Source: Pycnococcus provasolii (Eukaryota; Chlorophyta; Pseudoscourfieldiophyceae; Pseudoscourfieldiales; Pycnococcaceae). Taken from it: 64,000 nt of DNA. Positions 4,761-63,828 of this stretch are shown piece after piece. Under the pieces are notes generated by a model. That model was not told the DNA's origin. It ran no database searches and was given only the letters and a program-made list of their open reading frames with translations. The stretch is taken from positions 284,030 to 348,029 of the forward strand of contig OW568901.1 in assembly GCA_938743325.2 (NCBI GenBank). The letters run 5' to 3'. Position 1 is the stretch's first letter, and each line of letters begins with the position of its first letter. Both the position numbers and the translations under genes were made by a program.

Positions 4761-5258
4761 CGTGTACAAAATAAATAAAATAAATAAAAATAATGAAATG
4801 GAATGAAGACGTGTGTTGTGTGACAGATGATTTGAATCCCGGATTTTATCCGTTCGGGACAAGTCACAAGCAAAAGGGCTAGGGTTACGGGTTAGGGTTA
4901 CGGGTTGTAAGGGTTAGGGTTGTAAGGGTTAGGGTTACGGGTTAGGGTTTCCATGGAGCCGTCCTTCCTCCTCCCTCCTCCTCCTTCCTCATAAGGTAGG
5001 CCACACCCTCCATCCCCCTGGAGCCATAATCAGCCCGAGGATTTTCGTGCAAGCAGCGTGCAGCGTGCAGCGTGCAACGTTCAAGTGCAAGTGTGAGTAA
5101 GTGTAGCAAGAAGTGCAAGTGTGAGTGGAAGTGTAAGTGCAAGTGCAAGTGTAAGTGTAAGTGATAGAGTACAGTAAGTGTAGCAAGTAAGTGCAGCTTT
5201 CAAGATTGATATTGGCCGGTGCTTGAAGCAATTATTGGCCGAGCAACTTGAAGCAATC
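4761..5258. promoter_or_regulatory. Divergent intergenic region between the MYND and NLR-like genes
   Basis: This 498-bp stretch must hold both 5' leaders. It contains an A/T-rich AAATAAATAAA segment next to the MYND start. A telomere-like block follows at about 4880-4950 with GGGTTAGGG, GGGTTACGGG and TTGTAAGGG variants. At about 5080-5200 there is a hexamer-like array of AAGTG(C/T) units just before the NLR-like start. No TATA box is obvious. Confidence 0.5.
4878..4950 (+). repeat. Interstitial telomere-like repeat
   Basis: Degenerate TTAGGG units with TTACGGG and TTGTAAGGG variants. The segment GTAAGGGTTAGGGTTACGGG and what follows also occurs at about 2971-3000, so the MYND gene is bracketed by direct copies. 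Confidence 0.8.
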
Positions 5259-8200
5259 ATGGGGTGTGCGTCGTCATCAGAGACATCAGTGGCGGCGGTA
5301 CACGGCATTGATGCGGCGTTGTTGGCGGAGTCAACAGCGGTGCCAGTCAAGCCACCTAGTAGGCAAATCTTCGATGATGATGCGAAGAATCAGGCGCAGG
5401 AACACTCGTCCGAGTCGCCCGTGTACCGCGCAGTCGCTTTAGCTTGGCTTGCACAGTTTGTTAAGGCGCACGACGGAACGACGCAAAGCTGGGACGTCGT
5501 CAAGGAGTTTATGAGTGAGGAGGATGGAGGTGGCCAGGATGCGGTCTTAACGGTGACACCGCACAATCTTGAGACGCACCGCGATAAGCGACGAGCTGCT
5601 GAGAAAGCAAAGAGTGGCAAGCCGGTTCCGGTGCAGTACCGTGACATTCCGTTCGAACAGATGTACACGACGGATATCGTCGAGTGCTTCGTGCGTTCGC
5701 TGGCACGCAAAGAGCACATGAGCTACGCGCAAGCGAAGAACCTTCCTGTGGGCGCGCCGTCGTACTTTGTCTCGCACGCGTGGGGAAGCACTTTCGTCGA
5801 CCTCGTGAAGAGCGTGACTGGGGCACTCGCAGGCGCTGCTCAAAACGATACGTACGTGTGGCTGGACATTTTCGCCATCAACCAGGACGATACGGGTGGC
5901 GTGTTTTCGGCGATGGCTGAACTAGATGATGGCAAGACGCTCGCAAGCACCGTGGAAACATCGCGCGCGACGCTCGTCGTGCTGGATAAGGAGCGCGTCA
6001 TCCCGCTGACGAGATTGTGGTGCCTATACGAGATCGGGTCGACACCACCGCAGAAGCTGCAACTCGTCACGCACGGGTTCTCGGAAAAGGACGTGTCGCA
6101 TCACATTCGTAATATCGACGCGGAGACGGCGCTGTGCTTTTCGGAAGACGATAAGAAGATGATTCGCGGCGAAATCACGGGCAAATTTAAGTTTGAGAGT
6201 CTGAAGCACTTCACGGAGGAGCTCAAGCTGCGTTTCATGCTCCGTCCGATGAGCTATGAGTCGGATTTGCAGGCGCTGCGAGAACGTGGACAGAGCAACA
6301 ACTACCAGCTGGACGAGCTGCGTGCACATGTGACGTCGACCGGTGGACGTCTTGCATGCATTGTTGGCGGACCAGGCGAGGGCAAGTCGAGCGTGGCTGC
6401 GGCAGCCCTCGACTTGGTTCACGCGTCACACTTCTGCAAACGTGCTGATGTCAGGCGCCAGGACGTGCTTGAGATGGTGAGGTCGCTTGGCTTTCAGCTT
6501 GGTCAACGATTTGACGTTGTTCGCGAATGCTTGATTGATCTAGAGGAAGATACCGCCGCGAAGGCGCTCGTTGACCCGGATGTCGCGGTGAATGCGCTTT
6601 TGGTGGATCCGCTGAAAAAACTTGCTAAAATTCAAAAGCATGCGGTGATTTTGCTGGATGCGCTCGACGAGGCGGACGATGACCGGCACATCTCCAATGC
6701 TGCAGTCGGGTTGCTTCGGCATCTCGCTCGTGATGTGCGCTCGAGTGTCTCTGTGCTTGTGACGACGCGCCCAGATGCGGATGGGGACTATCCTCGTCGA
6801 CGTGTGCTGGAGCACGATTGGGAGGGGGGCATGTGCGTGATGGAGCCTGCACAAGTTCTTGGACCGGCCCCGGTGGAAGTGAAAAAGGAGGAGAGTCGCC
6901 TTCCAGGACCCTGGGAAGAGGCGATGCGCAACATGCAGAGCATAAAGGTGTACCAGATTGTTGCTCGCGAGTTTGTCAAGCGGCATGGAACGAGCTCGAA
7001 GTCACCACCTGCGGACATTGATGCCGCGTATAAGCTTTGGTTTGATCGCGCAGCGAAGGATGACGAGGATGTTCGTCGGCTGATTGACATTGTGCTCGCT
7101 TCGCGTGAACCTCTCTCGTCAGCGCATGTTGATAGATTGCGTTTGCGAGAGACGTGTGAGCACCTACCTGGTTGGGGACTGCTGTTTGAAGAGCGCGATC
7201 ACCTGCTGCAGACGTTGCACTTGTCACTGCGTGAATTTTTAGGAGACGCGAAGCGATCAGGTGAGCACGCAGCAGACGTATTTCGTGGACATCGTGAGCT
7301 GGCGCGATCGTGCCTGGACATTTTGAAACGTGGCGACGACGAGAAGGGGCCGGCTGTGGCATATTCCTTGCGACATGCACACGCGCACTTGACCGAGGCG
7401 GTTGAGAAGATGCAGCATGGTGACGATGAGACGTTGGCGATAAATGTGATGAAGGAGTGGCATGCTGCGTTTATGGTTGATCGTGAAAAGGAGGCGTCGA
7501 TGATTCCTGAGGGATACGAGGCGTCACCGTGGTGTGCGACAGAGTTTGCGGGTCTGTGGTTGAAGCGTCAGATGGAGGCAGGTCGAAGAGGTGTGCTCGT
7601 GGTGGAATTGCTGCGCCTCGAGAAGGCGCTATTGGAAGCGAAAAACAAGTTCGCGAATGATGCTACTGGGTTGATGGCGACTGTGGAATCGATGCATGCC
7701 TTTGTTCGCGTACTTCGGTGGGGAGTTGGGACGTATTCGGAGGTTGGATTGATTGCGGCGAATCTGCCGTGTACGAGTGCATGGCATCAGAGTCCAGGAC
7801 AGAGGGTGCTGTCGTCTTGTACGCCAAGTCTTTGCATACCAGCTCGTGTGGATATTGATGCTACGATATTGAACAACATGAATAGCCATTCTTCTGGGGT
7901 GACTTCCGCATCGTATTCCGCGGATGGTACGCGCATCGTCTCCGCGAGCTTTGACACTACCGTTCGCGTCTGGGACGCGACGACAGGCGCGTGCATATCT
8001 GTGCTGGAAGGCCATTCTAGTGTGGTGACTTCCGCCTCGTATTCCGCGGATGGGACGCGCATCGTCTCCGCGAGCTGGGACAAGAGCGTTCGCGTCTGGG
8101 ACGCGACGACCGGCGCGTGTATATCAGTGCTGGAAGGCCATACTCGTGCGGTGAGTTCCGCCTCGTATTCCGCGGATGGGACGCGCATCGTCTCCGCGAG

Positions 8201-9620
8201 CGACGACTCGACCATTCGCATCTGGGACGCGACGACCGGCGCAAGTATATCTGTGCTGGAAGGCCATTCTGGTGTGGTGACTTCCGCATCGTATTCGGCG
8301 GATGGGACGCGCATCGTCTCCGCGAGCGTGGACAAGACCGTTCGCGTCTGGGACGCGACGACCGGCGCGTGTATATCTGTGCTGGAAGGCCATTCTAGTA
8401 CGGTGACTTCCGCATCGTATTTCGCGGATGGTACGCGCATCGTCTCCGCGAGTGACGACAAGACTGTTCGCGTGTGGGACGCGACGACCGGCGCGTGTGT
8501 ATCTCTGCTGGAAGGCCATTCTGATCGGGTGCTTTCCGCATCGTATTCGGCGGATGGGACGCGCATCGTCTCCGCGAGCGACGACTCGACCGTTCGCATC
8601 TGGGACGCGACGACCGGCGCAAGTATATCTGTGCTGGAAGGCCATTCTGGTGTGGTGAACTCAGCGTCGTATTCCGCGGATGGGACGCGCATCGTCTCCG
8701 CGAGCGACGACTCGACCGTTCGCATCTGGGACGCGACGACCGGCGCAAGTATATCTGTGCTGGAAGGCCATTCTCGTGCGGTGACTTCCGCATCGTATTC
8801 CGCGGATGGGTTGCGCATCATCTCCGCGAGCAAGGACAAGACCATTCGCGTGTGGGACGCGACGACCGGCGCGTGTTTATCAGTGCTGGAAGGCCATTCT
8901 GATCGGGTGCTTTCCGCATCGTATTCTGCGGATGGGACGCGCATCGTCTCCGCGAGCCACGATAAGACCGTTCGCATCTGGGACGCGACGACCGGCGCGT
9001 GTGTATCTGTGCTGATAGGCCATTCTGATTGGGTGTTTTCCGCCTCGTATTCCGCGGATGGGACGCGCATCGTCTCCGCGAGCGACGACTCGACCGTTCG
9101 CATCTGGGACGCGACGACCGGCGCAAGTATATCTGTGCTGGAAGGCCATTCTGGTGTGGTGAACTCAGCGTCGTATTCCGCGGATGGGACGCGCATCGTC
9201 TCCGCGAGCGACGACTCGACCGTTCGCATCTGGGACGCGACGACCGGCGCAAGTATATCTGTGCTGGAAGGCCGTTCTCGTGCGGTGACTTCCGCATCGT
9301 ATTCCGCGGATGGGTTGCGCATCATCTCCGCGAGCAAGGACAAGACCATTCGCGTCTGGGACGCGACGACCGGCGCGTGCATATCTGTGCTGGAAGGCCA
9401 TTCTGATATGGTGTATTCCGCATCGTATTCCGCGGATGGTACACGCATCGTCTCCGCGAGCGGGGACGAGACCGTTCGCGTGTGGGACGCGACGACGGGT
9501 GCGTGTCTATCTGTGCTGGAAGGCCATTCTGATGGCGTGACTTCCGCATCGTATTCCGCGGATGGGACGCGCATCGTCTCCGCGAGCGAGGACAAGACCG
9601 TTCGCGTGTGGGATGTATGA
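5259..9620 (+). CDS. NLR-like protein: TIR-like domain, NACHT NTPase, 14 WD40 repeats (1453 aa)
   Basis: The start is the ATG at 5259, giving MGCASSSET, a good N-myristoylation plus Cys-palmitoylation signal, so membrane attachment is likely. Residues about 165-260 look TIR-like: YFVSHAWGS, then VWLDIFAINQ, then RLWCLYEIGS, whose Glu matches the position of the NADase glutamate in plant TIRs. A NACHT/STAND NTPase follows, with P-loop GGPGEGKSS near 367 and Walker B VILLDALDEADDD near 463. A helical region leads to 14 WD40 units from residue 877 to the end, enough for two seven-blade propellers. Known NACHT-WD40 proteins oligomerise on ligand sensing and activate the N-terminal effector; that role here is inference. 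The codons look normal and no stop interrupts the gene. An NACHT-family ATPase without an immune role is the alternative. Confidence 0.85.
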   Translation: MGCASSSETSVAAVHGIDAALLAESTAVPVKPPSRQIFDDDAKNQAQEHSSESPVYRAVALAWLAQFVKAHDGTTQSWDVVKEFMSEEDGGGQDAVLTVTPHNLETHRDKRRAAEKAKSGKPVPVQYRDIPFEQMYTTDIVECFVRSLARKEHMSYAQAKNLPVGAPSYFVSHAWGSTFVDLVKSVTGALAGAAQNDTYVWLDIFAINQDDTGGVFSAMAELDDGKTLASTVETSRATLVVLDKERVIPLTRLWCLYEIGSTPPQKLQLVTHGFSEKDVSHHIRNIDAETALCFSEDDKKMIRGEITGKFKFESLKHFTEELKLRFMLRPMSYESDLQALRERGQSNNYQLDELRAHVTSTGGRLACIVGGPGEGKSSVAAAALDLVHASHFCKRADVRRQDVLEMVRSLGFQLGQRFDVVRECLIDLEEDTAAKALVDPDVAVNALLVDPLKKLAKIQKHAVILLDALDEADDDRHISNAAVGLLRHLARDVRSSVSVLVTTRPDADGDYPRRRVLEHDWEGGMCVMEPAQVLGPAPVEVKKEESRLPGPWEEAMRNMQSIKVYQIVAREFVKRHGTSSKSPPADIDAAYKLWFDRAAKDDEDVRRLIDIVLASREPLSSAHVDRLRLRETCEHLPGWGLLFEERDHLLQTLHLSLREFLGDAKRSGEHAADVFRGHRELARSCLDILKRGDDEKGPAVAYSLRHAHAHLTEAVEKMQHGDDETLAINVMKEWHAAFMVDREKEASMIPEGYEASPWCATEFAGLWLKRQMEAGRRGVLVVELLRLEKALLEAKNKFANDATGLMATVESMHAFVRVLRWGVGTYSEVGLIAANLPCTSAWHQSPGQRVLSSCTPSLCIPARVDIDATILNNMNSHSSGVTSASYSADGTRIVSASFDTTVRVWDATTGACISVLEGHSSVVTSASYSADGTRIVSASWDKSVRVWDATTGACISVLEGHTRAVSSASYSADGTRIVSASDDSTIRIWDATTGASISVLEGHSGVVTSASYSADGTRIVSASVDKTVRVWDATTGACISVLEGHSSTVTSASYFADGTRIVSASDDKTVRVWDATTGACVSLLEGHSDRVLSASYSADGTRIVSASDDSTVRIWDATTGASISVLEGHSGVVNSASYSADGTRIVSASDDSTVRIWDATTGASISVLEGHSRAVTSASYSADGLRIISASKDKTIRVWDATTGACLSVLEGHSDRVLSASYSADGTRIVSASHDKTVRIWDATTGACVSVLIGHSDWVFSASYSADGTRIVSASDDSTVRIWDATTGASISVLEGHSGVVNSASYSADGTRIVSASDDSTVRIWDATTGASISVLEGRSRAVTSASYSADGLRIISASKDKTIRVWDATTGACISVLEGHSDMVYSASYSADGTRIVSASGDETVRVWDATTGACLSVLEGHSDGVTSASYSADGTRIVSASEDKTVRVWDV
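7887..9617 (+). repeat. Homogenised WD40 repeat array (13 full units of 126 bp plus one partial)
   Basis: Each unit encodes 42 residues of the form H-S-x-x-V-x-SASYSADG...SASxDxx(V/I)RxWDATTGA. Units 7 (8643-8768) and 11 (9147-9272) are identical in DNA as read by eye. Units 6-8 and 10-12 correspond one to one, which points to a duplication with a 504-bp (four-unit) period. Differences cluster at unit positions 3, 4, 6, 22, 24, 25 and 28. The repetition also opens a long spurious antisense frame. Confidence 0.95.
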
Positions 9621-12354: not shown

Positions 12355-14019
12355 TTACATTTTCTGTTCCACACGGCGCTCCTGTGCTTCTTCCTCGTCG
12401 TCGCCATCGTCGGCGGCGTCAGCCACTAGTCCGGCTGCGCGCCTCTTTGCGCGCTTCTTTTCGATCCCTCGTTCCCATCGAATGCGAAACTTTAGGTACA
12501 GGAGTAGAGCAGCACGCGCATCCTCCGCAGGATGGTGGCCTTGGTCGCTCGTCTGAATGCGGTGCCCGAGAAAGCTGAGAGTGAGGTTCTTTAGCCGACG
12601 TGGACGGCCACGGTACGTCAAAGGGCCGTACGTCGCGGTGTCGCGCGTCTGCGATTTCGGGTGTGTCATCTGAAGAGCCTTTAGGTCACTGTCAAGCTGA
12701 TGTCCGACGAGCAGCTTGCCGCGAAGAAGGGCACGAACGCGCGCCTGCACGTCGTCGAACGGCGGTGCGCCGCGCACGTGCTTTTGCTCGACTCCCGAGC
12801 ACCACGTGCGATAGTCCGTGATGAGCCGAAGATCGCCTACAGCATTGCAGTACGTGTCGATCAAAATCGTTCCCGCGCCATCAATCACACACGCTCGCGC
12901 AAGAACGCTGTCAATGCCGCCAGGACCGACGCCCACCATTTCGCAGTCGAGAGCGACGACTTCGCTCGCAAATGCCAGCGTCGTGCGTGGTATCAGATGC
13001 GAGAGACTGTCACCCGATGACGCATCATCGGCGTCATCGTCATGCTTACCTTGACTACTTGTGCGCGACTTTGGCGTGACGAAGCTTGCGGCATCGCGGC
13101 ACTCCGTCTCAAGCAACGATCCTTGTTCCTTTTCACCACCACCAAGGGTGCCCATGATGAGCGATGTGAGGCATGCACGCGAGCACGTGCGATTTCCTGC
13201 TTGCAGATCACCCGGGGCACGCTTGCCGATAGCCACGCGCGACGCAGCCGCCTTTGCAAGCTGATCAGCCATCTCGTTGCGCGTCACACCCTTGTGAGCC
13301 GTGACGTACGCAAACCGCGTGGATGCGCCGCACGTCGCGCGCAGCTCGAGCAGAAGAGCGAGTTCCGCGAGCAGCGCGTAGTGCGCGGCACGAGTGTGCT
13401 CAGGTACAGCGCCAAGTTTCCCTCGTCCAGTCCCATCGCCGTGGCGGTCGCTGTTGTCGTTGGCGTACGCAACCGCCGCGACGGACAGAAGGGTGGTTCT
13501 TGAGTCGCTTAAGATTCGCACGTTCTGATGGAGCGGTTGTCTGGCGAGGCTGAGGAGCACCGCGAACATCTCGACGACGTTGTTGTCGCTGGTTTCGTGA
13601 CGTCTGCAGCTGTGGCTCCCAAGTGGCGTGAGCGTGTGGTCGTGCAGCGCCACGGACGCGTTTGCACTGTGTGATCGCGCCACGAAGATTCCCACGCCGC
13701 CGTGCGCCTCTTGGTTGACGGACCCGTCAACGAATATGTCGAGGAGGGAGGAGGGTGAGACTTTTCCTCCTCCATGACCATGACTCGCTGATGCGACAGC
13801 TTTCGACGCCGACTTCGCATTCACCTTAATGCGAGAGGAGGCGGATGATGAGATGGAATTTAGATGTAACCCCAGACATCGAAACTGGGAAAGCGAGAGA
13901 GAGAGAGAAAGCAGGTACGAAGCCAAATACCCTAGTGAACATGATGACCTGACGAGGGCGAGGTGCACCAAGTACACGCCTAAAAGACGGACAACATCGT
14001 TGGCATTGGCGCGGAGCAT
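12355..14019 (-). CDS. RNase H domain fused to a REX4/ISG20-type 3'-5' exonuclease, 554 aa
   Basis: Two nuclease modules lie in one uninterrupted frame. Residues about 80-270 look like RNase HI: IFVDGS, NVVEMFAVL, ILSDSRT and a final TRNEMADQLA supply the D-E-D-D carboxylates expected to cleave RNA in RNA-DNA hybrids. After a linker, residues about 355-535 form a DEDDh exonuclease: VALDCEMVGVG, LLVGHQLDSDLKAL and HHPAEDARAAL, as in REX4/ISG20 proteins that trim rRNA or other RNA. The start is the ATG at 14019. The first 60 residues are basic, Leu/Ser-rich and possibly an organelle-targeting peptide. Fusion of these two folds in one chain is unusual. The substrate is unknown. Confidence 0.8.
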   Translation of the reverse strand: MLRANANDVVRLLGVYLVHLALVRSSCSLGYLASYLLSLSLSLSQFRCLGLHLNSISSSASSRIKVNAKSASKAVASASHGHGGGKVSPSSLLDIFVDGSVNQEAHGGVGIFVARSHSANASVALHDHTLTPLGSHSCRRHETSDNNVVEMFAVLLSLARQPLHQNVRILSDSRTTLLSVAAVAYANDNSDRHGDGTGRGKLGAVPEHTRAAHYALLAELALLLELRATCGASTRFAYVTAHKGVTRNEMADQLAKAAASRVAIGKRAPGDLQAGNRTCSRACLTSLIMGTLGGGEKEQGSLLETECRDAASFVTPKSRTSSQGKHDDDADDASSGDSLSHLIPRTTLAFASEVVALDCEMVGVGPGGIDSVLARACVIDGAGTILIDTYCNAVGDLRLITDYRTWCSGVEQKHVRGAPPFDDVQARVRALLRGKLLVGHQLDSDLKALQMTHPKSQTRDTATYGPLTYRGRPRRLKNLTLSFLGHRIQTSDQGHHPAEDARAALLLYLKFRIRWERGIEKKRAKRRAAGLVADAADDGDDEEEAQERRVEQKM

Positions 14020-14296
14020 GCTGGTACCACCACTGGTGTGCGACACTGTCAGAGCGAAAACGACGAAAATGGCGGAAATGGGTGTCGGCGGCGAAACCTA
14101 CTGGTGACTGGGGGATCTGTAACCCCTAATCGTTACCCGAAACCCGAATCGATATATGTACCATTTGGGATTTTTGTTGTTTTTCTATATATTTTTATAA
14201 ATATGTTTCTTGTTTGATAGACTATCTTACACAAGGAATATTCAAAGGGTCTATGCACTCCTTTTTCATATCATAGATTATTCTCGTTGTAGTATT
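14020..14296. other. Short intergenic region
   Basis: Contains AACCCCTAATCGTTACCCG and related CCCGAA motifs upstream of the nuclease gene, then an A/T-rich segment that is probably the 3' flank of the LRR gene. Confidence 0.4.
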
Positions 14297-18605: not shown

Positions 18606-18693
18606 ATTAGGGTTAGGGTATTAGGGTTAGGGTTAGGGTTAGGGTTAGGGTTAGGGTTAGGGTTAGGGTTAGGGTTAGGGTTAGGATTAGGGT
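18606..18693 (+). repeat. Interstitial telomeric repeat (TTAGGG)n
   Basis: About fourteen TTAGGG units with two small interruptions (GGGTATTAGGG near the start, GGATTAGGG at the end). It lies about 120 bp upstream of the kinase start, in the same orientation as the chromosome-end telomere. Confidence 0.95.
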
Positions 18694-32137: not shown

Positions 32138-33988
32138 CGTGGTGGTAATGAGGCCCGAGGACGTCGCAGAGTGCACTTGTAAGAAGTAAGCTCGCGGGAA
32201 TCACTATCACTACACTCACTGTCACTTACTCCCTTGTGAGAAAACACTTGTAAGTCGTCAAGTCGTCCGGACCCGGCCGGGAGGGCAAAACGTTCCCGTT
32301 CCCAAAAGCCCTGGGAGGGAGTGTGATTATTATTTATTATTACGTGATTACGTTCGTGGTTTGTGCATATATGTACGTAGACCTGCGGCGTTATTATTAC
32401 AGGTATGTTACCCCAACCAATTAATTGCGTGATTGCGTGAAAACGTTCGTTCAAAGCCTTCGTTGCACGTTCAGGGACACGTTGAAGAAAGCCTTCGTTG
32501 TCTCCTCCTCAACACTTGCTTGTCCGATACTCCGTCCGATGAAATGTCCCTTATGTCCGGGTCAATATAGTTCTATTATCCCGAGCAAAACTGTGGAATA
32601 TTCTTCTTCTCTAGGGTAAGTTCTCTACATAGTTGGTAGTTGGAGTGGATTCAACAGTGGTGGCCACTATCAGTGGTTATAACTTATGAGTATGACTACT
32701 ACTACACACTTATTCCAGTGTGAACTACTTACTTAAGGCCTCTTAAGGTAAGCAGCCGCTTTTACGTTCTTCACCTTGTTAAGCACGCGGCCACGCTTAG
32801 CCAAGTTCGTCACTCTTTACTTTAAGACCTTGTAACTGTCTTAAGACTCTTTTGCCTCTAATAAACGTACCTTAAGGTCGACCTCCCTGACCCTTAAGGC
32901 CTTAAGTTGTTGTACGTCTGCTACAGGTACATCTCATACGGTACAGCCTTGCTCACTCGCCGCCGACGCCGGGGTGCACAACGGATGGCCGGATGGCCAA
33001 AAACTACAAACCACAAACCCAACTAGCTCCAGCGATTGTCAAGTCAGTAACTCACCCACCCGAACAAGCCCAATGGACAAAAGGCGCGACGGCGCGTCGC
33101 CTCAAGCAACGAACGCAAGTAATGAAGCTATAGCTGCGCAGAGACAGCACAACCACTACATGGAGTGATGGAGGAGGTGGCGCACTGGCGCGGAAAGACG
33201 CCATTGCCGGGAGGGCCCCCGGTTTTTTTGAAGAATTCTACTAAAATGAAGGCGCGTGCGCGTGCGCGTGCAAGACGATGCATCTCCGTCCATTCAAGCC
33301 GAATGCCGACGCGAAAGCCTCAGGAGTCTCGACGAGTGTTCCAACCCCCCACGGCGAGTTGTTTGCGTAATTGCGTTCATCACTCATCAGCGAAGACACA
33401 AACGTACAAGATGGATGAAGACTCGAGCACGGTAAATTATGCATGCATCGCCCACTGATCTGTGCAAATTAATTGCAATGTCGAGCGCACCGAAGCTTTG
33501 GTGGCCGAACAAGTGCATTGGAATACTGCGCAGGCAAATTAGACCGACCGTGGTGGTGGCATCGAGCCATCGAGACATGAGAAGGGCAAGCGCATTATTC
33601 ACGTCGTCGGGGAACAACAAGGCGTCGTGTGGTGGAACAGATGCTCCGTCACGTCACGTGTAGCGAGGTTGGCAGCAGCTTGGCAAAGCCCCGTAAGAGC
33701 TTGCGAGCTAGCGGCCGGGCTCTTGACCACCTCATTGATGATGAACCTGGTCGTTGTCGCCGCACTCAGATCAGGTGGTAATCATCACTCGCTTGGCGCT
33801 TCTTCGAAGCGACGACGGGACTGGGCGTCGCATACTCGCATGCTAGGTATGTACTACAACCTTCAACAACGGCCAGGCGCCTCCCGACGGCGACACCCGT
33901 CTATTTTTTGTCCAAAAAAGATAAAAAGTAATAATTCATTCACGTTGATAACATTATTATTATACTGAATGTAACTATTATTATGATC
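32138..33988. other. 1.85-kb gene-free region
   Basis: No convincing gene is seen on either strand. A lone fragment resembling a Tc1-like transposon end lies at about 32569-32607. CTTAAG and CCTTAAGG hexamers are dense from 32735 to 32910. A GCGTGC purine/pyrimidine run lies at 33250-33275. The segment from 33900 is A/T-rich 3' flank of the next gene. Confidence 0.5.
32569..32607 (+). mobile_element. Solo remnant resembling the outer end of the 51358-53570 transposon
   Basis: TAGTTCTATTATCCCGAGCA followed by AAACTGTGGAATATTC matches the transposon terminus (TAGTTCTATCCCGAGAAAAA, then CTCTGGAATACAC) except for a 3-base insertion and a few substitutions. It includes the preceding TA. No partner end is visible nearby. 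Confidence 0.45.
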
Positions 33989-35998
33989 TTACAGCTCTTC
34001 CGATGCGGGGGCGGGGTTGGTGGTTTCGTGACACGGCGGTTTGGGTTTGTGTGAACACGACGACGTTTTTGCCGTCAGCTCGCCGGGACAGCACGGATCG
34101 AGCAGAACCTCCTCCACCATTTCTAATATCTGCTCCTCCTTCTCCTCCAGCTCCTCCTGCCCCTTCTCTTCATCCCACGTTTTCCTTCTTATCGTCGTAG
34201 GAAAGCATGCACGATAATTCATGAATGCCACGTGCCCGATGGAAAGGCCAACCACCACACCCATGAACAGTTCCACCTGATACGACATTGCAACGAGCAT
34301 CAGGAAGTACGCGCACACCATTGCACTCATATGTAGAAGGAGTTCCACGCAGTAACGAAGCCATCTCACGTGGCCAGCTAGGCGTTTACGCATATACATG
34401 CGCGTGAATGTAATTGCATGCAGAATAACGCCAAGCAAGATGGTGCCAAACACAGCCGCAGTCATCTGCGCCTGCGTCTCAATGGCCCACGAGTTGAATA
34501 AGTACAGCACGCAAGGTTCCCGCCAGTCCGCACCCGCGAGAAAGCCGTCCATGCGCATCGACAGCGATGGAACGTTCGCGTTGCAGTACGCGTTGCGATC
34601 CAATGTGACCGCATTCCGTGTGCTCGAAGACAATGTGCTGGCAGACTCTTCGGAGACAGGCGCACTTTGCACCTGTATCACCGGTGGAGGCGGTGGAGGC
34701 GGGGGCAACGGGCACGTCACGGCGCAGTCGTCGCAGTGCGACGGATTTTGGAACCCACCAAAATCCTCCGGCCATGTTTTCGACGAGCTCGTGGACTGGC
34801 AGACTGCCACGTCAGCCGTGCACCCGTGCTTTTTCTCGTCCACGACCACGCACGACATCCAGCAGTAGATGGCATCGCTTCCGCAACTCCCCTCGTCGCT
34901 GAGTTGACGGCGTGCTGCAGCTGCTGCTCCTGGTGTCGTCGTCGTCGTCGTCGTCGTCGCTGAGACGGACCCGCAACCCACGGTGTCTTCGACGTTGTCC
35001 CCATGCCTTTGAAACAGGGCGTGCGCACCGTCGCGCCATGCGCCGAACGTCACGTCGGGTGCAGAGGGAAGTGTGGTGGCTCGGTGTGGCAGAATCATGC
35101 GGCCGTACCACGCACGTCCTCCTGCGGGCACGCGCATCGAGTGAAGCGCAGGCTTGAGGTTGGACGCGGCTGCACCCGGCGCCCACGTCGACGCGCCTTG
35201 GCCGAGCAGGATGACCACCGCGTCAGAAGGAAGGGTCGGTTCCCACGTGTTGCCTTCGTCGTCGAACAGCACAAGGCCGCGGCTTGACGGCGTGCTGTCA
35301 TTGTCGTTGCCGTTGTCGTTGTCGTCGCCGAGTTGCAGCGCGGGAACCATGGCGATGGCGACGCCCACGTCAACGTGCGCGTGCAACCCGTCGTGTTCGT
35401 CGTCGTCGACGCCGCCGCCACCACCACCACCACCACCGGGGTACACGTGGAAGTGGTCGAGTCCATCCGGCTGTGTTGCCGCGTTCGCGAAGAATCTGTT
35501 TGTGGACGTGCCCAGTACGTCGTCGAGTCGCGCTAGCGCGGCGCTGGACGCGTCTCCGACGGAAGCGCGCAGTGTTTCCATGGCTTGTAGAGTCTGTTCG
35601 TCGCACGCGTCCGTTCGTATTGCCTGTCCCGTGTTCGCCGCGACGGTGTGTCTCTTCGTGCGTCCGTCCCCGAGCGTCGTTGTTTTCAGCGACGTGCGGT
35701 TGCACTTTGCGAGTCCGTTGAGTGCACTTTTCCTCGCGTCGACGTACTCGGGTACGTTACGGACGAGGAGCACACCAGGCGCCCGCGGGATGACGAACGC
35801 CTTTCTCACCGCCGATTCCCACGAAGCGGCGTCGGATGATGCGTAGTCCACAGATGGCAAAGACAAAGAAGCCGAAGACGTCTGATGCGCAGAGACTATT
35901 GACAGCAGCATCACGATGAATATGAAGAATGGCATACTCACCACCCTCATTTTCATTCTCATGAAACAACAAGGACGAGATAAACGCGGCGGCGGCAT
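33989..35998 (-). CDS. Membrane-anchored 2OG-Fe(II)-oxygenase-like protein, 669 aa
   Basis: The N-terminus (MRVVSMPFFIFIVMLLSIVS) is a signal peptide or anchor. Residues about 45-330 resemble an isopenicillin-N-synthase-like oxygenase: a GLHAHVDVGVA segment gives the HxD iron ligands, and KPALHSMRVPAGGRAWYGRM gives the distal His and a plausible 2-oxoglutarate-binding Arg. A Cys-containing segment follows (GSCGSDAIYCWMSCVVV, CDDCAVTCPLPP). Three or four hydrophobic helices lie at about 520-610 (AAVFGTILLGVILHAITF, LLHMSAMVCAYFLMLVAMSY). The tail is acidic then Cys/Pro-rich. A poly-Gly insert sits beside the HxD motif. The substrate is unknown, and the joining of this fold to a multi-helix membrane part is uncommon. 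Confidence 0.65.
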   Translation of the reverse strand: MPPPRLSRPCCFMRMKMRVVSMPFFIFIVMLLSIVSAHQTSSASLSLPSVDYASSDAASWESAVRKAFVIPRAPGVLLVRNVPEYVDARKSALNGLAKCNRTSLKTTTLGDGRTKRHTVAANTGQAIRTDACDEQTLQAMETLRASVGDASSAALARLDDVLGTSTNRFFANAATQPDGLDHFHVYPGGGGGGGGGVDDDEHDGLHAHVDVGVAIAMVPALQLGDDNDNGNDNDSTPSSRGLVLFDDEGNTWEPTLPSDAVVILLGQGASTWAPGAAASNLKPALHSMRVPAGGRAWYGRMILPHRATTLPSAPDVTFGAWRDGAHALFQRHGDNVEDTVGCGSVSATTTTTTTTPGAAAAARRQLSDEGSCGSDAIYCWMSCVVVDEKKHGCTADVAVCQSTSSSKTWPEDFGGFQNPSHCDDCAVTCPLPPPPPPPPVIQVQSAPVSEESASTLSSSTRNAVTLDRNAYCNANVPSLSMRMDGFLAGADWREPCVLYLFNSWAIETQAQMTAAVFGTILLGVILHAITFTRMYMRKRLAGHVRWLRYCVELLLHMSAMVCAYFLMLVAMSYQVELFMGVVVGLSIGHVAFMNYRACFPTTIRRKTWDEEKGQEELEEKEEQILEMVEEVLLDPCCPGELTAKTSSCSHKPKPPCHETTNPAPASEEL

Positions 35999-37120
35999 GA
36001 GCCAATATCAGTATACACAAGCGCTGTGACTGAGTGGTTAGCAAAGTGTCTTGTCAGAGCCCTGTTACTGACACCGAATAAGTGGGACCCCGGGTCTCTG
36101 ACACAGGCTCGAAGGATGCTCTGACACAACACGAGCACAACAACAACGAGACTAGTACTACCCTATCCTCGCAATATATCCCAAGTCCCAACAACAACAA
36201 CGTGTGCTGCTGATGGTGGTGATGGTGGTGGTATTGGTGGTGCTTGTGATGGTGGTGGTGATGGAGCTGGTGGTGGTGCTGGTGATGGTGGTGATGGATC
36301 AAGGGAGGCACGTGCTGATGGAGTGATGGGGCGAGTGAATGGAGTGATGGGTGGGCCCCTGTGATAAGTTCCTGATGGTTGGTTGGTGCTCCCCAGTTGT
36401 GCTCCCCCCCCTGTTATTTTTGTTTTTTTGGTCCTGGTTTTGCACTCTCAAGTACCCGGTAGTCTATGTGATGTCACACTTTCCCTCTTTCCCTCCCTCC
36501 TAACTCCTTGCTTCTTTGGAACCAAACTACCGGGTATGTAAACGGTATTGAATAGGGAGCCGCGTGATCCGAGAGAAATCGATCATACCTTTATAAGGCT
36601 TGCGTAGTATTGTAATTTTACCGTCCTGTTCGGGTTTGGTTCGGGTTCGGGTTTCGGGTTTCGGGTTTTGGTTTGGGGGTTCTTTCCGAAGTTTGGTCAC
36701 TTGTTGGGTACAAATAGAAGAACTTACATATCAAGGGCGCATCGCTGAAATGTGCACGACGAACTCGTGTCGTGTGAAAATTTATACCTATAGGTAGGAG
36801 TCGAAGGAAAAAGTCGCGACGACCGGTGTTTCGTCTTAACAGGCATACACACCCTTGGAAGCGTCACGCCAACAAAGGAGGAGGGGATTCGCATTTATCT
36901 TTGTCGCGATCGATGACCCATCCAAATGCATGGGTGGACGGACGGAGTGCGTCGCGATTCGGCGTGCTGTATGCGACATGTGTGATGTGATTTGAGCCTC
37001 GGGCTCTTCCTTCTCTTCGAGCCTTCTTCGTGTGACAAGCTTCACCATAAACAAATCCAACCAAAGTTCGGAGTTACAGGACGTCGTTGCATTGATTGGT
37101 CGCTTGATGGATCCGCCTTT
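35999..37120. other. Intergenic region with (CACCAT)-type and telobox-like repeats
   Basis: No gene is seen in 1.1 kb. A GGTGATGGTGGT run spans 36210-36300. A GGGTTTCGGGTTT-type stretch lies at 36630-36685. The segment 36010-36110 has weak resemblance to tRNA promoter boxes but does not fold as a tRNA. Confidence 0.5.
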
Positions 37121-38371
37121 CTATTTGCCCCACTTCACAATCATGCCAGCCCACGTCAAGCCCGCGCCAAAGCCAGCCAGCGCAAGCACGTCGCCGTCCT
37201 TGATGCGACCGTCGCTCACAGCCTCGCTGAGCGCGAGAGGAACGCTAGCGGCACTCGTGTTGCCGTACTTCGCCAAATTCGACACGACGCGGTCGGATGG
37301 AAGCTTCATGCGCTTCGCCGCGGCGTCAAGAATGCGCTGATTCGCCTGGTGCATGACAAGCCAGTCGACATCCTCCTTTTCAACACCCGCCTTGTCCAGC
37401 GCACTTTCAATCACAACCGGCACGGTGCTGACTGCAAACTTGAACACCTCCTGTCCGTTCATCGTGATATCTCCGAAACGTCCTGCGGCATTTGTCGCTG
37501 GTCGACCACCCTCCGGCGCCGCCGTCGTCGCCTCGTCACCCTCGCCGGTGACGTACGCGCTGTACGGGCTCACGAGGTGCATGTTTCTCGACCCGTCGCT
37601 CTTCATGTCGTACCCAAGAACGTTGCACCCTTCCTCGCTGGGTGCGGCTGTCAGCACGGCGGCACCCGCGCCATCTCCGAACAGAACGCACACGGTTCGA
37701 TCGCGCCAGTCCGTTTGCCTGCTGAGTGCGTCCGCGCCAACGACCAGCACGGTTTTGTACGCGCCACTTCGAATGAAGCTCGTCGCCGTGGCGAGGCTGA
37801 CGACGAACCCGCTGCACGCCGCGGTGATGTCGAACGCGACGGCGTTGCTCGCCCCGATCGCGCCCTGGAGGAGGCACGCCCCCCCGAACAGGTCGTCGGG
37901 CGTGGACGTCGCGAAGAGGATGAGGTCGACGTCCTCGGGCGTCACACCCGCCATTTCCATCGCCTCGCGCGAGGCATCCGCGGCAAGCTGCGTGACCGTC
38001 TCCCCTCCGCTGAGTACGCGCCGCGCGCCGATTCCCGTTCGTGTTCTGATCCACTCGTCGTTCGTCTCAACGTACTGCGAGAGGTCGTCGTTGGAGAGCG
38101 AGAGCGCGGGTGCGGCTGCCCCGCACCCGGCAAAGCGCACGCCCGCGGCGTACTTGTGTGCGTTTTCACTGTTTGCCGTTTTCGTCGCTGCAGATGCGGC
38201 CGCCGCCGACGACGACGACGATGCCGCTGCTTGTGCTGCCGACGCCGTGGTCGTTTGGTATCTGGAAGGAACGGACCCTGGTTGTGTCCTGTACCGACGC
38301 ACGGACGACGACGAGTCTAAGCATCGCGAGGCACACGTATGCTGAGGTCTGTGCTGAGCGAGATACGCCAT
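37121..38371 (-). CDS. 3-oxoacyl-[ACP] synthase III (KAS III), plastid-targeted, 416 aa
   Basis: Condenses acetyl-CoA with malonyl-ACP to start type II fatty acid synthesis in the plastid. The catalytic triad is in place: Cys in DITAACSGF near residue 185, His in VMHQANQRI near 342, Asn in YGNTSAASVP near 375. NDEWIRTRTGIGARR is the usual FabH N-terminal signature. About 75 extra N-terminal residues, Ser/Ala/Arg-rich and nearly free of acids, look like a chloroplast transit peptide. The ATG at 38371 is the first in frame. It is divergent from the UHM-TPR gene. Confidence 0.95.
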   Translation of the reverse strand: MAYLAQHRPQHTCASRCLDSSSSVRRYRTQPGSVPSRYQTTTASAAQAAASSSSSAAAASAATKTANSENAHKYAAGVRFAGCGAAAPALSLSNDDLSQYVETNDEWIRTRTGIGARRVLSGGETVTQLAADASREAMEMAGVTPEDVDLILFATSTPDDLFGGACLLQGAIGASNAVAFDITAACSGFVVSLATATSFIRSGAYKTVLVVGADALSRQTDWRDRTVCVLFGDGAGAAVLTAAPSEEGCNVLGYDMKSDGSRNMHLVSPYSAYVTGEGDEATTAAPEGGRPATNAAGRFGDITMNGQEVFKFAVSTVPVVIESALDKAGVEKEDVDWLVMHQANQRILDAAAKRMKLPSDRVVSNLAKYGNTSAASVPLALSEAVSDGRIKDGDVLALAGFGAGLTWAGMIVKWGK

Positions 38372-39041
38372 GGTAAAATAAGGAGAGTGCTAATGAGGTT
38401 GTGATCGAGAAGAACCACCTGGGGAGATGAAAAGATAGTGTGCGGTCCCCAGAGGCTCCCTGGGGGGAAGATAAACTAGACTATAAAGGGGGGGGGACCG
38501 GACGATCATCTTACCCGCCTCCTTTTGGGGCCACCTCGATTAGTCGGGATGGATGGGGGAACTTGGTGACCCGGGGTGCAATTTGATGGGTCCACCGTCC
38601 ACCCCGGGTGGGGTGCCACTTCTTGTCGCTTGAATTCCTCCCTTCCTTCCTTCCTTCTCCTTCAATTCAAGGGAGGGAGTTTGAGCCTGAGTTTGAGCCA
38701 GTTTTGTGTCAGCTACATACGAATAGTTGGTTGATAGTTGGAGATATCCGTAGTTGGTGGGAGTTTGGGCTGTTTGGGGGTTTGGGCTGTTTGTTTCGGG
38801 GTGTTCGTTTTTCCTTTTTCGTTTGGATGATGACATTCGGGGTTTTTACATTCGGGGTTTTTACATTCGGGGTTTTTACATTTCGGGGTTTTTATTTACA
38901 TTCGGGGTTTTTATTTACATTCGGGGTTTTTACATTTCGGGGTTTGGGATTTTGACCGTTTCTTTTGGGATTGCCCATTGGGGAAGGTTCGATTTCGTTC
39001 TTCTTGTCGGCCGGTGGGAGTATATAAGGAATCTATATATC
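38372..39041. promoter_or_regulatory. Divergent promoter region with GGGGTTTTT minisatellite and TATA box
   Basis: Between KAS III and the UHM-TPR gene. A roughly 15-bp repeat (CATTCGGGGTTTTTA) occupies 38830-38945. A TATATAAGGA box starts at 39021, only 21 bp before the UHM-TPR ATG, so the leader would be very short or the box may not be the one used. G-runs and CCTTCCTT lie further left. Confidence 0.5.
38830..38945 (+). repeat. 15-bp minisatellite (CATTCGGGGTTTTTA)n
   Basis: Seven or so units, some extended by TTTA or an extra T. Its reverse complement reads AAAAACCCCGAATG, akin to the AAACCCC motifs in neighbouring promoters. Confidence 0.9.
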
Positions 39042-40007
39042 ATGGCGCCGTCCCAACAACAATACGCAGAAGAAGAAGAAGAAGAAAAGAGTGACGAGTA
39101 CAATGGTGGTGGTGGTGCCTTGGTGGTCTCAACTTCATCATCTGCGCCATCCTCATCCTACGGCGTGCTTTTGTTGAACCTCTGTGACTGTGCGGATATG
39201 ATGGACGCGTCCATAAGAAATGACATGGTGCGAGAAGTCGAGGGGGAGTGCGGAAAATGGGGTAACGTTCTTGGCGTATCCACGCCGAAAGTGCCGGAAT
39301 CTCTCGCGAGCTCGAACGAATCACAAAAAGAGTCAACGCCATCCCGCATCTACGTGTACTTCGACTCGTTGGATGTCGCCTCGCGAGTGGCACGCGCTTT
39401 TGACCAGAGAGCGTTCGAGCAACGAGTCATCTCCGCACGGCTGTTAGAAGCTAGCGAAAAGGAAGGGTACGAGCACGACGACGCCGACGAGCCTTCTCGG
39501 GGTGGTGAGCACCACCAGCAGCAGAACCACCTGGACGATTCGCCTTCTCGTTCTTCGCGCGAGTCGGCGATGAGTTTTCACGCACGTGGTGCATATGAGG
39601 TGGGTGACTTTGCAAACGCGTGTCGACTGTACACGGACACGATCCGTGCGGAACCGTCGAACGCCCTGTTGTTCGTGCAGAGGTCGAAGTGCCACGCTGC
39701 GTTGCTGCTGCACGACCGCGCGTCGGAAGATGCCGCCACGGCTGTGAGAATGGCGCCAAACAGTCACTTGGCACATATCCAGGTAGGTGACGTGCTCACG
39801 TCGCAGGGACGAAACGCCATGGCAGCACGCTCGTACGCGGTCGCATACAAGCTCAAGCCTGACGACGTCGAGATTCAGGCACGTCTGCGCGCATCCTTAG
39901 CAGCTGCGAAGAAAAGTCCGGGTGCGTCCGTGTCACTGCAAACGACAACCGCTACAACCGCGGCGACGATGAAACGTAACGAGCACGGTTTGATGCGAAA
40001 GGTGTAA
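39042..40007 (+). CDS. UHM-type RRM plus TPR protein, 321 aa
   Basis: Residues about 40-140 resemble a U2AF-homology motif, the RRM variant in splicing factors: VLLLNLCDCADMMDASIRND, VREVEGECGKWGNVLGV, then IYVYFDSLDVASRVARAFDQ and FEQRVISARL. An acidic linker follows. Residues about 180-300 contain three TPR-like units (RGAYEVGDFANACRLYTDTI, RSKCHAALLLHDRASEDAAT, GDVLTSQGRNAMAARSYAVA). The combination suggests a spliceosome-linked adaptor, which is inference. The start is the ATG at 39042, close to a TATA box. I do not know a named orthologue. Confidence 0.7.
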   Translation: MAPSQQQYAEEEEEEKSDEYNGGGGALVVSTSSSAPSSSYGVLLLNLCDCADMMDASIRNDMVREVEGECGKWGNVLGVSTPKVPESLASSNESQKESTPSRIYVYFDSLDVASRVARAFDQRAFEQRVISARLLEASEKEGYEHDDADEPSRGGEHHQQQNHLDDSPSRSSRESAMSFHARGAYEVGDFANACRLYTDTIRAEPSNALLFVQRSKCHAALLLHDRASEDAATAVRMAPNSHLAHIQVGDVLTSQGRNAMAARSYAVAYKLKPDDVEIQARLRASLAAAKKSPGASVSLQTTTATTAATMKRNEHGLMRKV

Positions 40008-50932: not shown

Positions 50933-51357
50933 GGTTCGCTGTGTGGTCTACGGAGCGCGCTTGTGCCAGTGTGCGTGTGCAAGTGTGCGTGTGCGTGAGG
51001 AGGCGCGGCTGACACGGCACGAACCCGAACCCGAACCCGACGAGCGAGCGAGTTGTGCGCGGCGCAGGTGCGCAGGTGCGTGTGGTTGTTGGCGGATGAC
51101 GACGAGGGGAGGATGCAGGCTGCAGCACGCCACAGGGAGGGAGAACCCTAACTAACCTGGGGCGTCAAACTCCTCGAAGTGGTTTTCGGGGTTGGATAAC
51201 GCTCGTCCATCGGCTCTTTGGCCTGGGAGGTAAGAAAATTTGTGTTTGTTTGCAGACTTTAAAAAACATAGGTTATATTTCGTGGACTGCGCCGGACAAG
51301 AACAAGAAATGGGAAAGGTGCGCACAAGGTGACAGGTATCTGGCCGAAGCCTTATTA
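50933..51357. other. Upstream region of the AP-4 gene up to the transposon
   Basis: Contains a GTGTGCGTGTGC run (50970-51000) and a GAACCCGAACCCGAACCCGA telobox-like run at about 51021. No gene. Confidence 0.45.
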
Positions 51358-51567
51358 GTTCTATCCCGAGAAAAACTCTGGAATACACAAGGTTTGCACA
51401 GGTGAACGGCGGCCTTAACGACGTCAGTTCGGTGTTCTGAGACTTGCAAATGAAAGCCCTAACTAAACTACACATGCAACTCTTTTTCGAATTCACCAAC
51501 GAACACCCACCCGGTCCACAGGCATCCCCCATGACGTTCACAATTTTCACCCATTTTTTTCAAATCA
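51358..51567 (+). repeat. Left terminal inverted repeat (210 bp)
   Basis: Perfect inverted partner of 53361-53570. Its last base is the A of the transposase start codon. Confidence 0.92.
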
Positions 51568-53363
51568 TGCCCTTCGTCAAGGGGGATGCGAACAATCCAT
51601 CTGTGGTGCGGCAGAGCGCCAAGAAGCGCCAACGTGAGGATAGACTCAAGCAATACGCCCAGCGTAATGCCAAGAAGCGCAAAGAAGTTGCTGAGCGCCG
51701 CGCGTTGCCAACATCACCCCCAGTAATGGACCGCAAGGGCGTCACGAACCTTAACGACCGTCACATAAAGCAGATGAACGAGATGTTGAAGCGCCATCAA
51801 GAGCTCGACCAGTGGGACCTTGCCATCGCGTTTGGCATCGGTCAGGCCACGGTCTCTAGGCGCCTTAACGGCGATAGCAGGTTGACGGGAGGTCACGTCG
51901 GCCGACCGTACGGCTTGACCCCGGCCCACGTGGAAATAATCTGTGACGCGAAACGCGTGGACCCTCGGTCAAGGCACAAGGACTTGTCGAAACGCCTCCG
52001 GCGTATGGGTGTTCCACTAGGACGGGGATGGCGCGGCACACAGCTCATCGGCCGCGTACTCCGCGAACATGGGTTCACGATTCGAGGGACGAACCGGTAC
52101 TGCTATTTCGAGAAACGACTTTGGTACACACACATGGGATGGAGGGATGGCATGCTGTACATGCTCGGTTGGCATCCAAAGCAAAAAAGGAGATTGGCCT
52201 TTCGCATCGAGTACAAGCACTTGTATTACACGGACCAGACGCCATTATACTACGGCTTGGCGGCAGACGTCGTCTACAACGATAGGGAGACGTTCATGGA
52301 GGAGGCGCATAAGAAGGGTGCGGGATACCTCAACTTACACGCGACGATTGGATGCCGTGGGTGTGTGAAAGTGGCAGTGTTCCCGTCGTCGACGACGGAC
52401 GCCGAAGTCGTGGCGTACACGACAGGCACCCAAGCCGTCACGCACCGCCATATCGGCGGCGGCCCGCTCGTGGATCGCTTACCGGCTGGAACCGTGCACT
52501 TGTGGGACCGACTTGGACGCTCAGGTAGAGCTTGGAACCCAAAGAAGATGCATTACAATCCGCAAGTGCGCGCGGCGTTTCTGGAACGCGGCATCGGCGT
52601 CGACCTACTACCTGCCAAGGGAGCCGAGTTCAATCCGATTGAACTATTCAACGGATGGCTGCAACGATATTTGCTCCGTTGGACGCCACGAGGGCGGCCG
52701 AAAGACGCGTACGGGCAGGTTATCCACGGCGTGCGCACGCGCGAAGAGGCACTCGTCGCGCTCGACCAAGCCCTCCACGAGCTTCAATCGCGCCCGAAGA
52801 AGACTGCGCGGTTATTCCGCCATTGGTATCACCGACGAGTCTGCGGATCCGACGCGTTACGACGGTGGCTCTCTTCACCGGTGGGTGAGAAAATGCTGAA
52901 GACACGCCAACGACTTGGTGAGTCCGCGCCGATGCCAAACATCCTTCAGCGCGCGTTTTCCCGCGTGCTGTACAACGTGCATGCTCCGCCACCACCAGCA
53001 CCGAGCGACGTTGCCGGAACGACCACCACTCAGCTTCAACCGCCGCCGCCGCCGCCAAGCAGTGTGCCGCCAAGCAGTGTGCCAAGCAGTGTGCCGCCAA
53101 GCAGTGTGCCACCACCTCCGCCGCCGCCTCAGCCTCAGCCGCCGCCGCCTCCTCCGCCGCCTCCTCCGCCGCCTCCTCCGCCGCCGTCATCAGCGCCGCA
53201 TGATGCGCGCTTGAGTGCGGAAGAACGCGAGGCGCTTATGACGCTGACGCCGGACGTAAGCGACGACGAGGCTGAAGAAGGTGCGGCTGCTATGCTCGCG
53301 TTTCTGGACGAGTCATATGACACCGAAGAAAACGATTTCTTCATTGGTGATGACGACGAGTGA
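51567..53363 (+). CDS. DDE transposase, IS630/Tc1-mariner-like, 598 aa
   Basis: Probable transposase of the surrounding element. The start at 51567 (MPFVKGDANN) sits where the left arm ends; codons further upstream fall inside the inverted repeat. A basic N-terminus leads to a helix-turn-helix region (LAIAFGIGQATVSRRLNGDS) and a second DNA-binding part (DLSKRLRRMGVPLGRGWRGT, LIGRVLREHGFTIRG). The catalytic core has Asp in YYTDQTP near residue 221, Asp in HLWDRLGRSG near 313, and Glu in KGAEFNPIELFNGWL near 358. By my count 44 residues separate the last two, more than the usual 34-39. The C-terminal 120 residues are Pro/Ser-rich with long proline runs, then acidic. No stop interrupts it. Confidence 0.85.
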   Translation: MPFVKGDANNPSVVRQSAKKRQREDRLKQYAQRNAKKRKEVAERRALPTSPPVMDRKGVTNLNDRHIKQMNEMLKRHQELDQWDLAIAFGIGQATVSRRLNGDSRLTGGHVGRPYGLTPAHVEIICDAKRVDPRSRHKDLSKRLRRMGVPLGRGWRGTQLIGRVLREHGFTIRGTNRYCYFEKRLWYTHMGWRDGMLYMLGWHPKQKRRLAFRIEYKHLYYTDQTPLYYGLAADVVYNDRETFMEEAHKKGAGYLNLHATIGCRGCVKVAVFPSSTTDAEVVAYTTGTQAVTHRHIGGGPLVDRLPAGTVHLWDRLGRSGRAWNPKKMHYNPQVRAAFLERGIGVDLLPAKGAEFNPIELFNGWLQRYLLRWTPRGRPKDAYGQVIHGVRTREEALVALDQALHELQSRPKKTARLFRHWYHRRVCGSDALRRWLSSPVGEKMLKTRQRLGESAPMPNILQRAFSRVLYNVHAPPPPAPSDVAGTTTTQLQPPPPPPSSVPPSSVPSSVPPSSVPPPPPPPQPQPPPPPPPPPPPPPPPPSSAPHDARLSAEEREALMTLTPDVSDDEAEEGAAAMLAFLDESYDTEENDFFIGDDDE

Positions 53364-63778: not shown

Positions 63779-63828
63779 AATTAGGGTTACAATTAGGGTT
63801 ACAATTAGGGTTACAATTAGGGTTACAA
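63779..63828 (+). repeat. Telomere-proximal variant repeats (TTACAATTAGGG)n
   Basis: Four to five 12-bp units alternating TTAGGG with TTACAA, directly before the canonical array. Confidence 0.95.

Follow-up and report, generated by a model that had tools for sequence, protein, structure and literature searches.

Introduction

Whether a unicellular green alga can encode an intact receptor of the effector, switch and sensor type is the question raised by one gene in a stretch of Pycnococcus provasolii DNA of 64,000 nucleotides (assembly GCA_938743325.2, contig OW568901.1, positions 284,030–348,029 of the forward strand), referred to here as the window. The gene encodes a TIR-like N-terminal domain (N-domain), a NACHT-type NTPase and a WD40 array, and belongs to a dispersed family whose WD40 units evolve in concert while diversifying at a few positions. 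We favour, with moderate confidence, the reading that its product is a NOD-like receptor (NLR) of TIR/HET–NACHT–WD40 type acting by the mechanism proposed below.

Domain layout of the window gene

Translation of the frame gives 1453 residues followed by one stop, and no intron is needed. The protein opens with an MGC-type lipid-anchor motif, a candidate signal for N-myristoylation and palmitoylation. The NTPase region exceeds the Pfam cut-off of the NPHP3_N model and scores 25.4 bits with Pfam NACHT (E = 1.5e-5), under the 26.7 cut-off that three other family members pass; AAA_16 and others match the window gene below their Pfam cut-offs. P-loop and Walker B are present in all 12 family members described below, and a VTTRPD motif occupies residues 501–506 of the window gene. 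Judged by family profile, P-loop and Walker B, the region is a STAND NTPase of the NACHT clade. The C-terminal array contains 14 WD40 stretches according to both Pfam and a hidden Markov model of the unit, probably forming two seven-bladed propellers. Feature coordinates are collected in Table 1.

Table 1. Features of the window gene, in window coordinates, and inverted arms at family loci.
Feature	Location	Strand	Description
Whole gene	5259..9620	+	single frame, 1453 amino acids (aa); TIR-like domain, NACHT-type NTPase, possible winged helix, 14 WD40 units
MGCASS start, residues 1-6	5259..5276	+	candidate N-myristoylation (G2, S6) and palmitoylation (C3) signal
TIR-superfamily domain region, residues 52-345	5412..6293	+	stretch used for profile and fold comparison
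SHAWG block, residues 172-176	5772..5786	+	aligns with first block (FISY) of TIR profile
WLDIFAINQ block, residues 201-209	5859..5885	+	aligns with vWxD block of TIR profile; HET-like
WCLYE block, residues 254-258	6018..6032	+	falls on C..E block of TIR profile
NACHT-type STAND NTPase	6333..6770	+	Pfam NPHP3_N, E=7e-15
P-loop GGPGEGKS, residues 370-377	6366..6389	+	motif
Walker B ILLDALDE, residues 464-471	6648..6671	+	motif
Winged-helix-like region	7065..7400	+	Pfam HTH_TANC1, E=1.1e-4, under curated cut-off
WD40 array	7890..9617	+	13 full 42-aa units and a shorter 14th
WD40 units 6-8	8520..8897	+	97.6% DNA identity to units 10-12
WD40 units 10-12	9024..9401	+	partner of units 6-8
Inverted arms	L039		2.1 kb, 99.9%; flank sensor end
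Inverted arms	L040		2.5 kb, 99.2%; flank sensor end
Inverted arms	C23 pair L042/L035		3.3 kb, 99.8%; flank sensor end
Inverted arms	L034		1.5 kb, 97.6%; flank sensor end
Inverted arms	L037		287 bp, 99.3%; flank sensor end
Inverted arms	L033		74 bp, 97.3%; flank sensor end

An N-terminal domain related to the TIR superfamily

Pfam TIR models matched none of 25 family members, and a canonical TIR or HET domain by Pfam was rejected, neither being present in these members or in four further copies. The matches below cut-off fell in unrelated families, chiefly TY-Chap2 (11/25 members, best E = 0.0034). The N-domain being too divergent for any Pfam model, profile–profile and fold comparisons were needed. 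We used two alignments of the domain, A1 with 25 copies and A2 with 27, and a TIR profile grown iteratively over the available loci from the TIR of a bacterial protein (L062, described below). The final 25 sequences of this profile include the canonical TIR_2 of an algal protein on contig C44, and none of them is the divergent domain. The hhalign probability of the N-domain against this profile was 93.2% for A2 (E = 2.9e-7), 90.5% for A1 (E = 1.3e-6) and 92.5% for a trimmed A2, each E-value being that of a single comparison. Among the controls, 200 column shuffles reached at most 7.9%, the reversed alignment 0.4% and the NACHT region of the family 3.7%. Taken alone, the 11 WD40 members gave 63.7%, the 12 distant copies 51.9% and the three remote copies 84.5%. 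C255 is invariant across the 27 rows of A2. E258, the WCLYE glutamate that the earlier note on this DNA had proposed to compare with TIR NADase sites, is kept in at least 90% of these rows and aligns with the glutamate in the C..E block of the TIR profile. An iterated TIR search also returned E = 3.6e-4 for a member with ankyrin repeats; this value combined three weak stretches, each insignificant alone, and was not used.

An AlphaFold model built from 25 sequences of the alga's own genome had a mean pLDDT of 70.5, with core parts at 80–95. When this model was compared with the PDB by Foldseek, the best 20 rows were TIR or SEFIR structures or known TIR-holding proteins, led by TcpB (E = 0.010) and PdTIR (E = 0.016); TcpB, ThsB, RPP1 and TRIF are the rows that we take to be TIR-holding proteins. 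A profile of the same alignment searched against PDB sequences again had PdTIR as its best match, at a non-significant E of 0.12. PdTIR and TcpB are also the two best HHpred matches reported for the fungal HET-e1 domain (PMC4986451; statements on cited papers refer throughout to the parts of them that were available).

Pfam HET (PF06985) matched 0 of 25 members at E ≤ 10 and 0 of the four further copies. A genome search of the alga for HET gave 0 matches, although its positive controls gave none either, and the bacterial comparison genomes likewise yielded 0/13 and 0/296 with silent controls. Since the Pfam search of bacteria thus provided no comparison set, a HET consensus was used instead. 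This consensus reads WIDALCINQ where the window gene reads WLDIFAINQ, and it aligned with the N-domain over 18 columns at 44% identity with a probability of 32.7%; canonical TIRs reached 4.1%, and the highest value among 100 shuffles was 1.4%. On the strength of these alignments, the N-domain is assigned to the TIR superfamily as a member with a HET-like second block but no Pfam HET match.

The layout given in the earlier note, namely an MGC start, a TIR-like effector, a NACHT switch and 14 WD40 repeats in one intact gene, was thus borne out. For the effector, the profile–profile comparison speaks for TIR and the Pfam TIR models do not; the best Foldseek rows are of TIR type, with weak statistics.

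Searches with two short peptide patterns confirmed no relatives of the N-domain in viral contigs (28 pattern matches) or in bacterial and archaeal genomes (55 pattern matches). Foldseek against viral models gave 123 matches, none at E ≤ 0.001; one weak row (E = 0.58) was BFVD entry A0A2P0VP16, named TIR/WD40 domain-containing, from Tetraselmis virus 1, a virus of green algae.

A dispersed family under purifying selection

The genome comprises 32,333,900 bases in 46 contigs, and the large contigs hold green-algal genes: rbcS matches strongly four times, all on contig C2, and 51 matches are of light-harvesting complex (LHC) type. Searching it with the N-terminal part (N-part) of the window gene gave 52 matches, fragments counted. 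Twelve long-frame loci, dispersed over 11 contigs, include the window gene, and the other 11 hold N-parts 79–90% identical to it. The earlier note had proposed a search of related algal genomes for such a family; the one found here lies in the alga's own genome. Haplotype copies were rejected as the source of the family, the closest pair being 94.0% identical in the N-part. Eleven of the 12 long copies are open through the WD40 array, and the remaining one (L037) stops at the array start.

Ten members start with MGC and carry serine at position 6, and EF-hands stand at the front of the remaining two. The members share hardly any 5′ flanking sequence (nine flanks were compared and one pair aligned over more than 100 bp), so the retention of MGC in these ten members supports the start codon call. 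The ratio of nonsynonymous to synonymous substitution rates (dN/dS) in the N-part against the window gene is 0.22–0.29 in 10/10 pairs, one broken member being left out, and the family N-part is under purifying selection. These ratios, together with the 11 further loci, indicate that the features of the window gene are more than chance.

The TIR-like domain also occurs outside these loci. A further protein combines EF-hands, a TIR-like domain (56% identical), NPHP3_N and ankyrin repeats, and twelve more distant domain copies match at 31–37% identity; in one of the distant copies (L052/L138), TPR repeats are accompanied by a weak EF-hand match. Another of them belongs to the protein on contig C44 (about 32900–39400; L140, L055, L139), which contains a canonical TIR_2, a helicase-type NTPase region and the divergent TIR-like domain, as well as TPR-like repeats judged by eye in the translation. 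Within this single genome, the TIR-like domain is combined with repeats of WD40, ankyrin and TPR type. Canonical TIR_2 has 18 matches in the genome at E ≤ 0.001, 16 of them over the Pfam cut-off and none in the 12 family loci. One TIR_2 match (C41:277351–277728) lies outside the window, some 6.3 kb to the left of its start.

A truncated, broken copy of the gene start is present at seven places (L017–L023 and L044, where L044 and L017 denote the same place). These copies sit in dispersed blocks of 2.3–2.5 kb, and the six others are 98.7–99.3% identical to the copy on contig C4.

Diversification and concerted evolution of the WD40 units

The 11 open copies have 14 units in nine cases, 12 in L031 and an irregular 15, several of them partial, in L041. 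Across 132 units from these copies, positions 2, 3, 5, 21 and 23 carry 10–16 amino acids each; most other positions vary little, position 36 being the next most variable. By a counting method, without a recombination-aware codon model, the ratio of nonsynonymous to synonymous differences per site (pN/pS) is 1.67 at these five positions (bootstrap over genes, 1.53–1.88) and 0.32 over the other 37 (0.28–0.36).

The same places have been described in the fungal HNWD proteins, in which unit positions 10, 11, 12, 14, 30, 32 and 39 have high dN/dS (PMC12222747). The register taken from the HET-E unit printed in that source, HNWD numbering minus 9, converts these to 1, 2, 3, 5, 21, 23 and 30. All five algal hypervariable positions fall within the HNWD seven, as five random positions would about once in 40,000 by arithmetic; positions 1 and 30, high in HNWD, are not hypervariable in the alga. 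The four strongest fungal codons in a second source, 7, 9, 25 and 27 (PMC1805685), are spaced as algal positions 3, 5, 21 and 23. Diversification at what are predicted to be contact positions, with the rest conserved, is in our reading a signature of recognition.

Mean internal unit identity is 0.81–0.86 in 10 of the 11 members and 0.68 in L041. The median synonymous divergence (dS) of the N-part among the 11 paralogs is 0.30 (0.16–0.51), and that of WD40 units from 10 genes is 0.18 within genes and 0.20 between genes. For units that occupy corresponding places in two genes pS is 0.159, scarcely lower than the 0.173 for arbitrary pairs of units from different genes. The WD40 units thus evolve in concert. 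Exchange on two scales is suggested by individual cases: L033 (contig C21) and L034 (contig C32) differ by pS 0.139 in the N-part and 0.012 in the array, for which the best reading is that the entire array was recently transferred, and the near identity of units 6–8 and 10–12 in the window gene would reflect recent exchange or duplication inside the array. The gene family, its concerted evolution and its hypervariable positions go beyond what the earlier note had claimed.

Comparison with bacterial and eukaryotic systems

As a control, we analysed 80 bacterial WD40 loci picked by similarity to the algal array, 54 of which gave at least six units. Their internal unit identity has a median of 0.64 and a maximum of 0.85. 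The five most variable positions are exactly the algal five in 7 of 11 algal copies and include four of them in the other four copies. Among the 54 bacterial loci, three have all of their top five within the HNWD seven, while 19 have four of them there, 17 have three, 12 have two and three have one. Because bacterial arrays can show the same positions, the pattern is taken as a property of the sensor class, and its use as proof of HNWD kinship was dropped after this control.

A bacterial parallel in plan is the Oligosphaera ethanolica protein L062 (535–4977), which joins TIR_2, NPHP3_N, HTH_TANC1 (below cut-off) and WD40 in one frame in the same order as the algal gene. Its array has 84% internal identity and the same five most variable positions as the algal units. 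Unlike the algal gene, L062 has a canonical TIR_2 recognised at E = 2e-19; BLAST does not match it to the TIR-like domain of the alga even at E = 10, and its NACHT part is 30% identical to the algal one over 166 query residues.

Among eukaryotes, the HNWD proteins HET-D, HET-E and HET-R of Podospora anserina share with the algal gene an N-terminal TIR-related domain followed by NACHT and WD40, 42-aa units of high internal identity evolving in concert, and high dN/dS at all five hypervariable positions (PMC12222747, PMC2873952, PMC1805685). Active fungal alleles and HET-E have been modelled as two seven-bladed propellers (PMC12222747). The modelled fungal allele reaches its 14 blades with 11 conserved and three cryptic repeats, whereas in 9 of 11 algal copies all 14 units match the conserved unit. 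The algal gene has the HNWD-type domain order, but with a TIR-superfamily N-domain that gives no Pfam HET match; the algal proteins have an MGC start or EF-hands in front, of which the available parts of the HNWD sources make no mention. The two groups belong to different kingdoms.

In the red alga Chondrus crispus, 23 of 58 nucleotide-binding (NB)-WD40 proteins include TIR, so that TIR, nucleotide-binding and WD40 regions occur in one algal protein family; those proteins are said to have a transmembrane-type domain as well, and repeat evolution is not described in the available part of the source (PMC7145615). Chlamydomonas, a green alga, has NACHT with C-terminal WD40, for which the part of the source at hand mentions neither a TIR-like effector nor a diversifying family (PMC4773052). 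PMC4986451 mentions that green algae have HET homologues, and an APAF1_C/WD40 gene is reported from Ulva (PMC8891106). Plant TIR-NB-ARC-LRR proteins likewise combine a TIR effector, a STAND switch and a repeat sensor, with NB-ARC in place of NACHT and leucine-rich repeats in place of WD40 (PMC9153377). The earlier note had called a TIR–NACHT–WD40 order unusual; that view does not hold, as the plan is shared by the fungal HNWD proteins, the Chondrus TIR NB-WD40 proteins and L062. While the architecture is not new, a diversifying family of this type in a unicellular green alga has no counterpart in the literature searched: by title and abstract, the matches listed included no such family in Pycnococcus or another green alga.

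Among eukaryotes, sensors built of such highly conserved repeats have been reported to be specifically enriched in the NLRs of fungi, green plants rarely having them (PMC4986451), and yeasts without NLRs have been read as a sign that NLRs are tied to multicellularity. P. provasolii is free-living and 1.5–4 micrometres wide (PMC11130579). A family of about a dozen members in such an alga would loosen that tie, would open a marine system to the question of what is detected by receptors of this kind, and would bridge bacterial TIR-STAND-WD40 proteins and eukaryotic NLRs.

Proposed function and alternative readings

In the mechanism we propose, the WD40 sensor would bind a non-self or modified-self protein through top-face blade residues, and the NACHT switch, released by binding, would exchange its nucleotide and oligomerise, as expected of the STAND class. 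The lipidated MGC start would hold the clustered TIR-like domains at a membrane, where they would cleave NAD+ or nucleic acid via E258 and C255, and this cleavage would trigger a death or defence response. We infer the immune role, NAD cleavage, cell death and the ligand by analogy with known systems. A number of results weigh against this reading. No Pfam model scores above its cut-off within the first 344 residues, and PADLOC and NCBIfam gave zero matches for the N-part. The AlphaFold model is moderate, the other four models having mean pLDDT values of 58.7–64.0; no Foldseek match reaches E 0.001, and the superpositions in the top 20 are poor (rmsd 5.6–16 Å, target TM 0.17–0.47). Unit positions 4, 14, 15, 17, 25, 36, 38 and 42 taken singly also have pN/pS above 1, with pN of 0.02–0.31 there compared with 0.41–0.68 at the five hypervariable positions, and the pattern of variable positions, as a mark of sensor class, is no proof of common descent with fungal HNWD. 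Finally, some TIRs lack the catalytic glutamate or do not hydrolyse NAD+ (PMC9153377).

This last point also favours a TIR-like domain that is a non-enzymatic adaptor, clustered by activation and recruiting other TIR proteins for the chemistry. Candidate partners exist in the TIR_2 matches outside the 12 loci, and the C44 protein carries both TIR_2 and the divergent domain; the conservation of the WCLYE cysteine and glutamate argues against an adaptor, which we consider unlikely. A STAND protein with a signalling or scaffold role outside immunity, comparable to NWD1 or TEP1 of animals, would agree with NTPase and winged-helix models named after animal nephrocystin 3 and TANC1. Yet a multi-copy family, concerted evolution and a replacement excess at contact positions are unexpected of a scaffold, and this role appears distinctly improbable. 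Recognition of conspecifics in mating or fusion control, as in fungal HNWD, rather than of viruses or bacteria, is suggested by the architecture type, the 14-blade layout and variable positions as in HET-D/HET-E; most fungal NLR and HET genes are, however, not allorecognition genes (PMC10197012, PMC12881547), and we regard this role as quite unlikely. The broken copies, both the truncated ones and L037, and the long inverted arms at several loci would fit a family of repeats that is selfish or in decay, maintained by palindromic duplication and without a cell function, but the open frames through the array and the low dN/dS of the N-part speak against this, and we consider it very unlikely.

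Inverted arms at family loci

Inverted repeats flank six of the 12 loci (Table 1). In four of them the arms include coding sequence (1.5–3.3 kb, 97.6–99.9% identical), and in the other two they are short upstream pieces only. The window gene showed no such repeats within the window, and L031, L032, L036, L038 and L041 showed none within short flanks. At the potentially switchable loci, arms consisting of upstream DNA and part of the coding start border the remainder of the gene on either side. Recombination between them might flip the sensor segment between promoter copies and, with interchromosomal exchange of arrays, let clones vary in repertoire, a proposal that we hold to be very unlikely. 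Other families of this genome, such as LHC, have inverted gene copies too, which argues for a general genome habit. The arms may also be an assembly artefact; those longer than 70 bp differ by 0.1–2.7%.

Other features of the window and genome

The window ends on TTAGGG repeats, with TTAGGG-like arrays at 4875–4949, 18607–18693 and 63781–64000, one of them just upstream of the receptor gene. Two genes left of that gene, a frame at 86–2692 (−) contains a zinc knuckle and a MULE transposase match below cut-off. At 12358–14046 (−), RNase H and an RNase T-type exonuclease are joined in one frame. Perfect 212-bp inverted repeats (51356–51567 and 53361–53572) lie at both ends of a 639-aa frame (51444–53363) that has no Pfam match at E ≤ 0.001 and is perhaps a small mobile element. 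Elsewhere in the genome, a conserved 18S stretch at C2:263603–264289 is present as two exact halves about 0.6 kb apart and recurs as an inverted copy at C2:245498–246184; the split probably reflects an insertion or intron in 18S rRNA.
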